Shown here in pieces: positions 41,254 to 56,786 of a stretch of DNA of 62,436 bases (positions are counted from its first letter, which is position 1; each line of letters opens with the position of its first letter). The translations under genes and the position numbers were made by a program. The stretch is taken from positions 1 through 62,436 of the forward strand of contig JADQBQ010000023.1 of the NCBI GenBank assembly GCA_016278505.1. Reading direction: 5' to 3'. Below the pieces are notes generated by a model. That model did no database searches, was not told where the DNA came from, and was given only the letters and a program-made list of their open reading frames with translations. This stretch comes from Clostridiales bacterium. Lineage in GTDB: Bacteria; Bacillota; Desulfotomaculia; Desulfotomaculales; VENG01.

Positions 41254-41317
41254 TGTTTTCTGGGACAAGGTATTAATCCTTCTGATATATTAATACTGAT
41301 CTCGGAAGGATGCAATG

Positions 41318-41404
41318 AGACGCGGCGATACTTTTTTGGGCACCGAAAGCTGCGTGGAGCAAGTGGTGCAACCGGCCTTCTGAACCTAAGGCTGGTTTTG
41401 TTTT
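41318..41404 (+). ncRNA. Candidate riboswitch-like leader with pseudoknot and terminator
   Basis: CGCGGC (41321-41326) pairs with GCTGCG (41349-41354), and GCACC (41340-41344) pairs with GGTGC (41365-41369). The two helices interleave, forming an H-type pseudoknot. It is followed by a terminator hairpin CCGGCCTT / AAGGCTGG (41372-41395) and TTTTGTTTT. This pseudoknot-then-terminator layout 50 bp before a regulator gene is typical of riboswitches, but I do not recognise the class. It shares three ordered blocks with 44879-44940. Confidence 0.5.
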
Positions 41405-51209: not shown

Positions 51210-51566
51210 TTGGTTCTAGATCCACAGGCTGTGGCCCGTTATGCAGTGGAGGCTGCCGAGGAAAAAAAAGCATATGAGGTTACGGTGCTGGACATCGGAA
51301 GTGTTTCCGTTGTTGCTGATTATTTTGTCATGCTAAACGGGAGATCTTCGACCCATACCAAGTCCATTGCGGAAGAAATTGAGAACAAGCTGGAAGAGGC
51401 AGGTTTAAGGCCCTATCGTAAAGAAGGTTTTCGTGAGGGGCGGTGGATCTTGCTGGATTACGGTGATGTGGTAGTTCATGTATTTCAGGAGTCGGAGCGC
51501 CGTTTTTATAACTTGGAACGCCTGTGGGGGGACGCTGAGGTTGTGGGCATGCCCATGAACGGTTAA
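51210..51566 (+). CDS. rsfS: Ribosomal silencing factor RsfS
   Basis: 118 aa, TTG start behind AAGGGAGGAG. RsfS/Iojap fold: 'VTVLDIGSVSVVADYFVMLNG' (landmark DIGSVSVVADYFV), 'GRWILLDYGDVVVHVFQE', 'FYNLERLWGDAEVV'. Binds uL14 and blocks subunit joining when nutrients are scarce. In relatives leuS usually follows (recalled); here the T-box, a tRNA and an acyl-CoA synthetase gene intervene. Confidence 0.95.
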   Translation: MVLDPQAVARYAVEAAEEKKAYEVTVLDIGSVSVVADYFVMLNGRSSTHTKSIAEEIENKLEEAGLRPYRKEGFREGRWILLDYGDVVVHVFQESERRFYNLERLWGDAEVVGMPMNG

Positions 51567-51584
51567 TAAATTGATTTTGTAGTG

Positions 51585-51613
51585 TTGACATTAATTTAAG
51601 TTTTAATTATAAT
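51585..51613 (+). promoter_or_regulatory. Perfect consensus sigma-A promoter of the T-box/tRNA unit
   Basis: TTGACA at 51585-51590, a 17-bp spacer, TATAAT at 51608-51613. Both hexamers and the spacing are ideal, so strong constitutive initiation is expected, as for stable-RNA genes. Confidence 0.92.
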
Positions 51614-51619
51614 ATAGTG

Positions 51620-51946
51620 CAGTTGCATGAGCAAAGAAAAGCCTTGATGGGAAGTAGTAAACAATGTAACTGTCAGAGAGCCACCGGTTGGTGTGAGGTG
51701 GTCAGCCAAGTTGTTGAACTCGTCCCGGAGCTGTTTGGAGGAAATCATTATTCCAGACCGGCAGGTGACCGTTATCACTGTGAGCGGGTAAAGATATGGG
51801 GATGTAGCTCAGCTGGGAGAGCGCCTGAATGGCATTCAGGAGGCCAGGGGTTCGAGCCCCCTCATCTCCACCAGTATTGTCTTTACCAAATAGGGTGGTA
51901 CCGCGAGATAAACCTCTCGTCCCTTCATGGGATGAGGGGTTTTTTT
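51620..51946 (+). ncRNA. Leucine T-box riboswitch with an embedded tRNA gene
   Basis: Stem I carries the distal-loop block AGAGAGCCACCGGTTGG with TGTGAGGTGG (51676-51703) and the specifier region GAACTC-GTCCCGGAG, specifier CUC (Leu) at 51719-51721. Stem III is GGTAAAGA (51787-51794) pairing perfectly with TCTTTACC (51880-51887); the whole tRNA-Ala lies in its loop. The T-box sequence AGGGTGGTACCGCG (51892-51905) has UGGU for an ACCA end. The terminator CCTCTCGTCCC / GGGATGAGGGG plus T7 ends at 51946. It reads through when uncharged tRNA-Leu binds. Confidence 0.9.
51798..51873 (+). tRNA. tRNA-Ala (anticodon GGC), inside the T-box leader
   Basis: 76 nt with encoded CCA. Acceptor GGGGATG / CATCTCC (one G-U), D arm GCTC-AGCTGGGA-GAGC, anticodon stem CCTGA/TCAGG with loop ATGGCAT (anticodon GGC), T arm AGGGG-TTCGAGC-CCCCT, discriminator A. 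It has no promoter or terminator of its own. Without it, Stem III of the T-box would close on a 9-nt loop (TAT + GTATTG). Confidence 0.96.
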
Positions 51947-52069
51947 AGTTTTTATACACCCCTTGGGAGTGTTGGATGTACTACCCGTGTAATTTGTCCC
52001 TTTGAGTGGTTAATGTTTTAATCAGATAAAGAAGAACCTTATAAAGTATGACCCGGGAGGTTGCGAATA

Positions 52070-53725
52070 ATGAATTTTGGTAAGATGACTATTGGTGAAC
52101 TGTTGGATGCTGCTGTTGATCGGTACCCGGAAAATGATGCATTGGTTTATCACGAGCTTGGCCTGCGCTATTCTTACCGTGAATTTCAGCACCAATGCGA
52201 GGCAGTGGCCAAGGGGCTTATGGCCCTGGGTATTAAGCGAGGCGAACATATTTTAATTTGGGCAACAAATGTACCTGAATGGGTCATTCTACAATTTGCA
52301 GCAGCAAAAATGGGGGCAGTATTGGTAACGGCTAATACCAATTATAAATCCTTTGAAATTAAATATCTTTTAGAACAATCCGATGCCACTACATTACTGT
52401 TTATGGAGGGAACCAAAGAGATAGATTTTGTGGAAGTGATCAATGAGTTGTGTCCGGAATTGAGTGAATCTATGCCCGGCCGTTTGAACTGCTCAAAACT
52501 TCCCCGGCTTCAGAATGTGGTTTTCTTTGGTGAACAGGAGCATGCCGGGATGTTTTCCTGGGAGGATCTGTTGGAAATGGGCAAGTGGGTTTCTAATGAG
52601 GAATTGCATGCACGTCAGTTGTCCCTGGATGCAGATGATGTGGCTAACATGCAGTATACTTCGGGGACTACCGGTTTTCCGAAAGGGGTCATGCTGACCC
52701 ACTATAACCTGGTGGGTAATGCCATCAGTATCGGACGGTGTATGAATTTGGGACCGGAGGACCGTATGTGTATTCCCGTGCCCCTATTTCACTGTTTTGG
52801 CTGTGTGCTGGGGACGCTGTCCTGTGTGGCCTGGGGGAGTACAATGTTACCCATGTTGGCCTTTAACCCTGCTAAGGTGTTGGAAGCGGTGGAGGCGGAG
52901 CGGTGTACCGCGCTGCACGGGGTGCCCACCATGTTTATTACCGAACTGGAAATAATGGAAAACAATCATTATGATACATCCTCTCTGCGCACCGGCATTA
53001 TGGCAGGCGCACCCTGTCCCACAGAAGTTATGAAGGCAGTGGTGGAGCACATGGGAGCGAGTGAAATAGTAATTACTTATGGCCAGACTGAGGCATCCCC
53101 GGGAATTACCATGACCCGTACCCAGGATCCGCTGGACATTAGGGTTTCCACCGTAGGTCGTGCCCTACCCGGTATTGACGTCAAGATTTTGGATCCGGAA
53201 ACCGGTGTAGAGGTTGAGCAGGGCCGGCAGGGTGAAATTTGCGCCAAGGGATACAATGTAATGAAAGGCTATTACAAAATGCCCGAAGCAACTGCTGCTG
53301 CAGTGGACACTGAAGGGTGGTTGCATACAGGCGATTTAGGTGTTATGGATGAAAACGGTTATGTTTCTATCACCGGGCGTCTCAAGGATATGATTATACG
53401 CGGCGGAGAAAATATTTACCCGCGGGAGGTTGAAGAGTTTCTTTATACCCATCCTAACGTAAAGGATGTACAGGTAGTGGGGGTACCCAGCGAAAAATAC
53501 GGTGAAGAAGTAATGGCCTTTATTCAATTAAAAGAGGGTTCGCAGGTAAAGGCCGAGGAAATAAAGGAGTTCTGTAAGGGTAAGATAGCGCGCTATAAGA
53601 TTCCGCGGCATGTACAGTTTGTGGCCAGCTATCCTACTACTGCCAATGGAAAGGTGCAGAAATACAAGCTCAGGGAACAAGGCATTAAAAAACTGGGCCT
53701 TGAGCACCTTATCGAAACAGCGTAG
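52070..53725 (+). CDS. AMP-dependent acyl-CoA synthetase
   Basis: 551 aa from the ATG at 52070 (GGGAGG 10 nt upstream; an earlier TTG is too close). ANL-superfamily motifs: A3 'YTSGTTGFPKGVMLTH', A5 'TYGQTEASPG', A7 'EGWLHTGDLGVMDENGY', A8 'GRLKDMIIRGGENIYPREVE' (landmark RGGENIYP) and the catalytic Lys of A10 in 'TANGKVQKYKLRE'. Resembles FadD-type medium/long-chain acyl-CoA ligases. First gene after the leucine T-box, so if read-through occurs it would respond to leucine starvation, which is unexpected unless it activates leucine-derived acids. Confidence 0.88.
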   Translation: MNFGKMTIGELLDAAVDRYPENDALVYHELGLRYSYREFQHQCEAVAKGLMALGIKRGEHILIWATNVPEWVILQFAAAKMGAVLVTANTNYKSFEIKYLLEQSDATTLLFMEGTKEIDFVEVINELCPELSESMPGRLNCSKLPRLQNVVFFGEQEHAGMFSWEDLLEMGKWVSNEELHARQLSLDADDVANMQYTSGTTGFPKGVMLTHYNLVGNAISIGRCMNLGPEDRMCIPVPLFHCFGCVLGTLSCVAWGSTMLPMLAFNPAKVLEAVEAERCTALHGVPTMFITELEIMENNHYDTSSLRTGIMAGAPCPTEVMKAVVEHMGASEIVITYGQTEASPGITMTRTQDPLDIRVSTVGRALPGIDVKILDPETGVEVEQGRQGEICAKGYNVMKGYYKMPEATAAAVDTEGWLHTGDLGVMDENGYVSITGRLKDMIIRGGENIYPREVEEFLYTHPNVKDVQVVGVPSEKYGEEVMAFIQLKEGSQVKAEEIKEFCKGKIARYKIPRHVQFVASYPTTANGKVQKYKLREQGIKKLGLEHLIETA

Positions 53726-54232: not shown

Positions 54233-54305
54233 AGAATTAAATTTGCTACCAAAGTTGAAGGAGGTGTCCAACCGGTTTTTATCATTGATAGGACCGGGAA
54301 GGATT

Positions 54306-56786
54306 GTGAAGGAACGTTATGATTTTAAATCAATTGAACAAAAATGGCAGGCCCAATGGGAAACAAAAGATATCTATTCGGTGCCTGATTTTAGTGACAA
54401 GCCCAAATACTATTGTCTGGAAATGTTCCCGTACCCGTCAGGTAAATTACACATGGGCCACGTGCGCAATTACTCCATAGGGGATGTTGTAGCCCGTTTT
54501 AAGAGCATGCACGGATATCATGTTTTGCACCCCATGGGCTGGGATGCTTTCGGCCTTCCGGCAGAGAATGCTGCCATTAAACATGGTGGCCTGCACCCTG
54601 CGGAATGGACCCGGGATAATATTGATGCCATGCGCTCACAGCTTAAACAGCTGGGTTTGAGCTACGACTGGAACAGGGAAGTAGCCACCTGTCACCCGGG
54701 GTATTACAAATGGACCCAGTGGCTTTTCCTCGAGCTTTATAAAACAGGATTAGCTTACAAGAAAAAGGCTGCCGTTAACTGGTGCCCCTCCTGCGCCACT
54801 GTACTGGCCAATGAGCAGGTTAAGGAAGGCGAATGTGAGCGCTGCAGCACCGTGGTGCAAAGGCGGGAACTGGACCAGTGGTTCTTTAAGATAACCGACT
54901 ATGCTGACCGCCTGCTGGCCGATCTAAAAAAACTGGAAGGCTGGCCGGAAAAAGTAAAGATAATGCAGGAAAACTGGATTGGGCGCAGTGAGGGGTCGGA
55001 AATAGTATTTAAGGCCGAAACCGGTGATGAAATGAAGGTTTTTACCACTCGCCCGGACACCATTTACGGTGTTACTTATATGGTGCTGGCGCCGGAACAT
55101 CCCCTGGTGGAAAAGATGATTCAGGGTAAGCCGGAGGCCCAACAGGTGCGTGAATTTGTAAACCAGGTACGTGACTTGAGCGAATTGGACCGTACCTCCA
55201 CCGAGGCCGAAAAAATAGGACTTCCTACTGGTGCCTACTGTATAAACCCGGTAAACGGTGAAAAGGTACCTGTTTTAGTGGGTAACTATGTACTTATGGA
55301 ATACGGTACTGGAGCGGTGATGGGTGTACCTGCCCACGACCAGCGCGACTTTGAATTTGCCCGCAAGTACGGCCTGCCCATACGGGTAGTTATACAGCCC
55401 AAGGGACAAGAACTGCAGTCTGAAACAATGACCGAGGCTTATACGGAAGACGGTTTAATGGTCAATTCAGGACACTTTGACGGCACTCCCAACCGGCAGG
55501 GTATCACAAAAGTTATTAAATATCTGGAAGAAAATAGATGGGGCAGTGGACAGATCAATTACCGGCTGCGGGATTGGTTGATATCCCGCCAGCGTTACTG
55601 GGGTGCTCCCATTCCCATGGTTTATTGTGATCAGTGTGGGATAGTCCCGGTGCCGGAGGAAGAGCTGCCGGTTACGCTGCCCCTGGATGTGGAGCTTAAG
55701 CAGGTAGGTAAAAATCCTCTCACCGAGTGTGAGGATTTCATGAATACCACTTGTCCACAATGTGGTGCCAAGGCTCGGCGTGAGACCGATACCATGGACA
55801 CCTTTATGTGTTCTTCCTGGTACTATTACCGCTATACTAGTCCCAGGGATGAGGAAAATGCCTGGGGGAAGCAGCAGGTGGAGCACTGGCTGCCGGTGGA
55901 CCAGTATATAGGTGGCGTGGAGCACGCAATTTTGCACCTTTTATACAGCCGTTTTTTCACCAAGGTTTTCTATGACCAGGGGTATTGTAAAAATGAAGAG
56001 CCCTTTGAAAACCTGCTCACTCAGGGCATGGTGCTTAAAGACGGAGCAAAAATGAGCAAGTCCAAGGGTAACGTGGTGAGCCCTGAAGATATTATTGCCA
56101 GGTATGGTGCTGATACAGCCAGGATGTTTATTTTGTTTGCCGCACCCCCCGAACGCGACCTGGAGTGGAGTGACCAGGGAGTGGAGGGTTGCTACCGGTT
56201 CTTGAACCGGGTGTGGCGGCTGGTGGCAGCGGTGAGTGAGTCCTTGCAGGAGGTTCCTTCCAGGCCGGAAGGGAATCTGGTAGGTGTGAACCGGGAAATG
56301 CGCCGTATCACCCACTATACTATCAAGAAAGTTACCGAGGATATTTCACAGCGTTTTAACTTTAACACTGCGGTGAGCGCAGTCATGGAACTGGTAAACG
56401 CTATGTACCAGTATAAGGATGTCCCGGCAAGCGACCGGGACCCGGCAGTAATGCGCGAGGGCATTGAAACCATATTGGTGCTGCTGGCTCCCTTTGCCCC
56501 CCATGTTACTGAAGAATTATGGGAAGGCATCGGTAATACCCAGAGCGTCCATACGCAGTCCTGGCCGCAGTATGACAAGGATGCTATTGTGGAGGAAGAA
56601 GTAACCATTGTGGTTCAGATTAACGGTAAGGTGCGGGATAGGATGATAATCCCGGCGGAAATGGATCCCGAGGCGATGAAGGAATTGGTTATGGGGCAGC
56701 CCAAGGTGCAGGAGTTAATAGAAGGAAAAAATGTAGTCAAAGTTATTGCCGTACCGAAAAAGCTGGTTAATATAGTGGTAAAGTAG
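54306..56786 (+). CDS. leuS: Leucyl-tRNA synthetase
   Basis: 826 aa from the GTG at 54306 behind GGGAAGG; the longer frame runs into the repeat. Class I synthetase: HIGH-type motif in '[15 protein letters not shown]', zinc-type Cys pairs '[18 protein letters not shown]' (CPSC, CERC), CP1 editing domain with the Thr-rich '[14 protein letters not shown]' and '[16 protein letters not shown]', KMSKS in '[16 protein letters not shown]', then the anticodon-binding domain and a C-terminal domain. It should be the natural target of the leucine T-box 2.4 kb upstream. Confidence 0.97.

Follow-up and report, generated by a model that had tools for sequence, protein, structure and literature searches.

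On the forward strand of the 62,436-nucleotide stretch of DNA analysed here (the window), the gene rsfS, encoding the ribosomal silencing factor (51210-51566; Pfam RsfS, 4.6e-34), precedes a T-box leader, a gene for an AMP-binding acyl-CoA ligase (52061-53725; Pfam PF00501, 9.4e-98), which is the first gene 3' of the leader, and leuS, assigned by Pfam to leucyl-tRNA synthetase (54243-56786). Scanning the DNA from the ligase gene to leuS revealed neither a terminator nor a promoter-like site on their strand; judging by this layout, the arrangement is consistent with a single operon comprising the leader, the ligase gene and leuS, and leucine control may have been extended to the ligase. An amino-acid-related gene, leuS, is therefore present downstream of the leader, though in the window the ligase gene intervenes. 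In most relatives leuS lies directly 3' of the leader, and in four loci (L032, L036, L040 and L041) it starts about 1.9-2.0 kb past the T-box, a distance that leaves room for a gene.

The leader fitted the T-box family RF00230 over its full length, model positions 1-219 being matched at 51635-51927 of the + strand with 132.2 bits (gathering score 93, E 3.7e-29), and the fit treated a tRNA as an 83-nt insert located in the Stem III loop. The specifier is CTC, a leucine codon (51719-51721, + strand); it matches the tRNA-Leu(GAG) found in the same genome, and a strict pattern recovered it in 91 of 105 nested loci. The sequence GAGCG (51782-51786, + strand) constitutes the RRRNG purine motif preceding Stem III, as defined in PMC7778990 and PMC7583486. 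Sequence, covariance fit and covariation all identify the 5' strand of Stem III, GGTAAAGA, at 51787-51794 and its 3' strand, TCTTTACC, at 51880-51887, both on the + strand, the latter being followed by a conserved AA (51888-51889). The RRRNG-Stem III-AA motif, essential to the aminoacylation sensor according to T-box structural work (PMC7778990; PMC7583486), is thus present as GAGCG-GGTAAAGA...TCTTTACC-AA. Downstream, the sequence and the covariance fit place the T-box core AGGGTGGTACCGCG, belonging to the antiterminator with its UGGU bulge, at 51892-51905 (+ strand), and both the antiterminator with the UGGN bulge and a competing 14-pair terminator are present in the leader.

The insert is a tRNA-Ala(GGC) gene with an encoded CCA (51798-51873, + strand, by ARAGORN; RF00005, 65.0 bits at 51798-51870). 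Both methods recovered a complete cloverleaf with the anticodon GGC, and the tRNA carries the G3:U70 identity pair of AlaRS (GGGGATG/CATCTCC); in alignment A1, the G3 and U70 columns were invariant. The identity pair, the full cloverleaf and the CCA rule out that the tRNA of the window is a pseudogene. In 105 of 113 loci, position -1 is U, which bacterial RNase P prefers, and CCA is encoded in most nested loci. Four loci (L261-L264, in genomes G237, G290, G166 and G384) harbor a nested tRNA-Ala of 74 nt lacking an encoded CCA (ARAGORN), and in three of them at most a few bases separate the 3' end of the tRNA from the start of Stem III; as deduced from the sequence of these tRNAs, their maturation would call for RNase Z and the addition of CCA, not trimming.

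A previous sequence-only reading of this DNA had described a tRNA-Ala(GGC) nested in Stem III of a leucine T-box, between two exact 8-bp arms with linkers of 3 and 6 nt, within a leader comprising a TTGACA-17-TATAAT promoter, a CUC specifier, a T-box core and a terminator. The sequence at 51580-51960 agrees with this description: the T-box and tRNA covariance fits and ARAGORN confirmed the nesting, every element lies where it had been placed, and GGTAAAGA and TCTTTACC are complementary at 8 of 8 positions, with the coordinates and the 3- and 6-nt linkers as proposed. The covariance fit, which had been named as a possible refutation if the flanks proved not to be Stem III, assigned them to Stem III.

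The leader and the tRNA are predicted to share one transcription unit. The sigma-70 promoter TTGACA-17-TATAAT (51585-51613, + strand), a 12/12 match found in the same position class in relatives, is the sole promoter-like site ahead of both, and the sole terminator 3' of both is an intrinsic one of 14 pairs and a T run, located by the terminator scan at 51910-51942 (+ strand), beyond the tRNA and the T-box core. No promoter-like site was found in the window between Stem I and the tRNA, nor any promoter/terminator pair isolating the tRNA, in keeping with the earlier proposal that it has no promoter of its own. For comparison, the best promoters of the genome's other T-box leaders score 6-12. 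Among the 103 nested loci scanned, 97 have a best promoter with 11 or 12 matches out of 12, and it ends 145-280 nt 5' of the tRNA in all but one; freestanding tRNA-Ala genes, those without a T-box, have a promoter of similar quality whose end is mostly 10-13 nt upstream. The promoter scan therefore led us to reject a separate tRNA promoter in the window and in its relatives, with the possible exception of L229 (genome G478), the only one of the 103 loci with a strong promoter less than 150 nt from the tRNA. There, a perfect promoter ends 64 nt 5' of the tRNA, a distance that suggests that most of Stem I may be missing from the element.

The genome to which the window belongs (G000) is a 3.92-Mb draft in 56 contigs. 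Besides the leader, it contains 14 T-box matches that reach or come close to the Rfam cut-off and three weaker ones, and no tRNA was found inside any of the 14. At G000:C32:37119-37483 and at G000:C36:20588-20991, a strong T-box match adjoins or overlaps a weak one, an arrangement of sequence that suggests tandem or partial T-boxes. Of the 48 tRNA places read by ARAGORN, exactly one is Ala(GGC), the nested one. Among these 48 places we did not find tRNAs for Ala(TGC), Ile, Asp, Phe or Cys, which probably lie in unassembled rRNA-operon repeats. Because the draft misses tRNAs, the nested gene is regarded here as the only Ala(GGC) gene found and is not claimed as the only alanine tRNA.

The sequence-only reading had treated the nesting as a single curiosity while proposing a comparison of the leader in relatives; this comparison revealed some T-boxes without a tRNA and many with the same nesting, that is, a widely conserved architecture instead. 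The other genome of the window's family has this nested element as well, with 85% identity, and the nesting was also present in Desulfofundulus thermosubterraneus, D. thermobenzoicus, Desulfotruncus alcoholivorax, Desulfallas sp. Bu1-1 and several metagenome-derived genomes. An unbiased pattern, requiring the T-arm of any tRNA and any T-box core within the next 20-50 nt, matched 44 of the order's 113 genomes, and in 43 the match was the end of a tRNA-Ala; four further genomes (G015 and G017-G019) have a variant T-box core, raising the nested total to 47 of 113. In this sample the class consists of that one order, so the class search repeats the order search. In the phylum sample, the pattern matched 73 of 398 genomes, from 47 of 267 genera, and once the matches without a nested tRNA were removed about 70 of the 398 genomes, in at least 25 families, were truly nested. 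A reversed-pattern control was almost silent.

Each place was read, and in about 105 loci the nested tRNA was always Ala(GGC); in the nested relatives the T-box core was always 3' of the tRNA. As the pattern permitted any tRNA and any T-box and its real matches were only Ala(GGC), other tRNA types in other T-boxes were discarded. A tRNA-Arg match (L231) was rejected for having neither leuS nor a recognisable T-box flank, and the matches at L248 and on contig C80 of G100 were not tRNAs. Outside the order, leuS was the next gene in 58 of 60 nested loci, one of the two exceptions being a contig end. The full Rfam T-box threshold was passed by 12 of 20 distant nested loci; since the remaining 8 fell below it, not all distant nested loci may be functional switches. 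An isolated accident or an assembly artefact is ruled out by the occurrence of the same nesting across many independent assemblies, and chance is excluded because the nesting recurs in at least 25 families and is accompanied by compensatory changes in Stem III.

These changes were evident even though the two strands of Stem III are separated by a tRNA of about 76 nt. The strands co-vary between loci, as illustrated by the pairs GGTAAA/TTTACC, GGCAGC/GCTGCC, GACAGA/TCTGTC, AGCAGA/TCTGCT, GATGAG/CTCGTC and TAAAAA/TTTTTA, and changes on both sides were detected at 6 of the 6 pairs tested (54 distinct rows, nine irregular rows having been left out). Of all Stem III cells, 92.8% were paired, versus 77.5% in shuffled sets and 22-46% when the partner was slid by 1-3 columns, a comparison that favours the unslid version since pairing had helped to set the register. 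On this comparative evidence, Stem III is real and under selection. In the predicted fold, Stem III continues into the acceptor stem and the arms of the tRNA are formed; the folding energy of the segment comprising the tRNA and Stem III was no better than that of shuffles (z -0.75). Both the nesting and the short linkers are conserved across loci.

Across the order, the rsfS-leuS locus contains the nested element, a T-box without a tRNA, a tRNA without a T-box, or neither. Eroding tRNA-Ala sequences lie within an intact Stem III in L193 and L192/L194, and nested-tRNA pseudogenes comprise L148, L150, L192-L194 and apparently also L199-L201. In tRNA-free T-boxes after a clean loss, Stem III is a short hairpin. 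In the opposite direction, terminators still resembling the T-box terminator (CCTCTCGTCC...) lie downstream of several free tRNA-Ala genes, and L050 retains ACCGCGAGAGAAGCCTCTCGCCC. Because decay intermediates run in both directions, the nested state looks, from these sequences, ancestral to the T-box-only and the tRNA-only states, with repeated losses. The RsfS tree, which is small and weak (118 residues), required 12 changes of the nested state. In L148 (G011) and L150 (G013), the truncated tRNA within Stem III keeps the acceptor stem and the D arm and has lost the anticodon and T arms; it might be an acceptor-stem mimic or the product of simple decay.

The nested copy is usually the sole Ala(GGC) gene of the genome. 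A further Ala(GGC) gene was present in 2 of 45 nested genomes, compared with 16 of the 20 genomes that have a T-box alone (Fisher p about 1e-9), a value that counts genomes, not events, as on the RsfS tree only 3 independent pairs bear on the idea that the nested gene replaces other copies. In the 16 nested genomes from other families, a second Ala(GGC) gene was found in none.

Together, the anatomy, the conservation, the covariation of Stem III, the single promoter and the usual sole copy of Ala(GGC) lead us to propose, with a probability of about 0.8, that this is a conserved and old dual-function leader, a leucine T-box and a tRNA-Ala(GGC) precursor in one RNA. From this basis we infer the order of events, an efficient processing and a tRNA supply independent of leucine. 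RNA polymerase would start at the single leader promoter and transcribe Stem I, Stem II, the first strand of Stem III, the tRNA and the antiterminator/terminator. When uncharged tRNA-Leu(GAG) occupies the CUC specifier and the UGGU bulge, read-through toward leuS would be favoured; with charged tRNA-Leu, termination would be. As the tRNA lies 5' of the sole terminator, it would be carried by terminated and read-through transcripts alike, and these short and long RNAs would supply tRNA-Ala(GGC) irrespective of leucine. The tRNA would then be released by RNase P and 3' nucleases, probably once the switching decision is made, and until that release the short Stem III helix would keep the halves of the switch joined.

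With respect to the interpretation, the sequence-only reading had offered three options: sensing of tRNA-Leu before processing, a tRNA-Ala supply linked to leucine status, or constitutive tRNA-Ala production from the strong leader promoter. Its anatomy stood, and of the three options the constitutive one fits best, because the tRNA precedes the only terminator. That the T-box decision ties the supply of tRNA-Ala to leucine status seems very improbable to us; the two are physically linked, but a terminator placed after the tRNA in the window, and a T-box core 3' of the tRNA in the relatives, imply that termination spares the tRNA. The notion that maturation by RNase P/Z cuts the riboswitch in two is possible; a Stem III of 5-11 bp could hold both halves together, and the switching decision probably precedes maturation.

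The dual-function reading is mostly compatible with a frozen accident, in which the tRNA entered a permissive loop of a leuS T-box on one occasion and stayed there for want of another promoter, without any functional interplay in either direction; the two differ only in that the latter denies a benefit. The presence of one combination everywhere, the repeated decay of either part and the insertions that T-box domains, including Stem III, are known to carry (PMC7583486) make such an accident conceivable, although we would bet against it, as persistence in at least 25 families, the tight linkers and the covarying clamp suggest that both parts stay functional together. Far harder to sustain is the idea that the tRNA gene is surrounded by the degenerate remains of a T-box whose switching is lost: relatives with a freestanding tRNA-Ala and T-box-like terminators do exist, but the leader of the window scores 132 bits over its full length and has kept the specifier, the purine motif, the AA, the bulge and the terminator intact, and Stem III covaries across families.

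It is also unlikely, if less so, that the decision and the excision of the nested tRNA are coupled, such that co-transcriptional folding of tRNA-Ala or its cleavage by RNase P times, resets or splits the switch and amino-acid sensing and maturation of the tRNA form one device. Cleavage by RNase P could separate Stem I/II from the discriminator and thereby set the decision window, or it could trim and stabilise the read-through leuS mRNA, as a J-type RNase does in thrS/thrZ of B. subtilis; we consider these two variants, even taken jointly, rather doubtful. In support of them, the nesting, the short linkers and U(-1) are conserved, the leaders of B. subtilis thrS and thrZ are cut just 5' of the leader terminator (PMC3997798), and the title of reference 161 in that article presents thrS leader processing as important for induction. 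In B. subtilis, J/Y-type RNases cut at a plain site and no tRNA is released. Against these variants, lineages that lost the tRNA keep ordinary T-boxes, which implies that the tRNA is not required for switching, and after a clean loss nothing but a short hairpin stands in its place.

The leader resembles the RF00230 T-boxes of leuS leaders in Firmicutes in having a Stem I with a CUC specifier, a Stem II region, the RRRNG-Stem III-AA motif, a T-box bulge, an antiterminator/terminator and leuS downstream. Unlike these, its Stem III loop is the whole tRNA gene of another amino acid, and the leader doubles as a predicted pre-tRNA. The tRNA genes of 16S-23S spacers and of tRNA-mRNA operons such as E. 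coli tufB also lie within a longer RNA, from which the tRNA is cut by RNase P and 3' nucleases, but they are located outside any regulatory RNA fold. Tandem T-boxes, whether partial or full (PMC7583486), are likewise composite leaders, yet what they join is a pair of sensors, with no tRNA gene. In the open literature we found no description of a tRNA inside a T-box or another riboswitch, although an earlier notice in T-box surveys is possible; keyword searches of the TBDB paper (PMC7778990), the 2008 survey (PMC2494555) and the 2020 review (PMC7583486) brought up no mention of a nested tRNA. A functional RNA gene within the working fold of a riboswitch, with always the same pair kept over deep bacterial divergence, appears to be undescribed in the open literature covered here.

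Our results suggest that terminated T-box leaders are not always waste and can be a main source of a tRNA. The nested leader represents a natural test of the T-box as a split RNA, of the limits of Stem III and of the timing of RNase P relative to transcription decisions. For annotation and genetics, it is worth pointing out that deletion of the leader would take out what is usually the cell's sole tRNA-Ala(GGC) gene. Elsewhere in the window, a Cyclic di-GMP-II riboswitch aptamer was detected at 41299-41386 (+ strand), its 56.1 bits lying barely above the gathering score.
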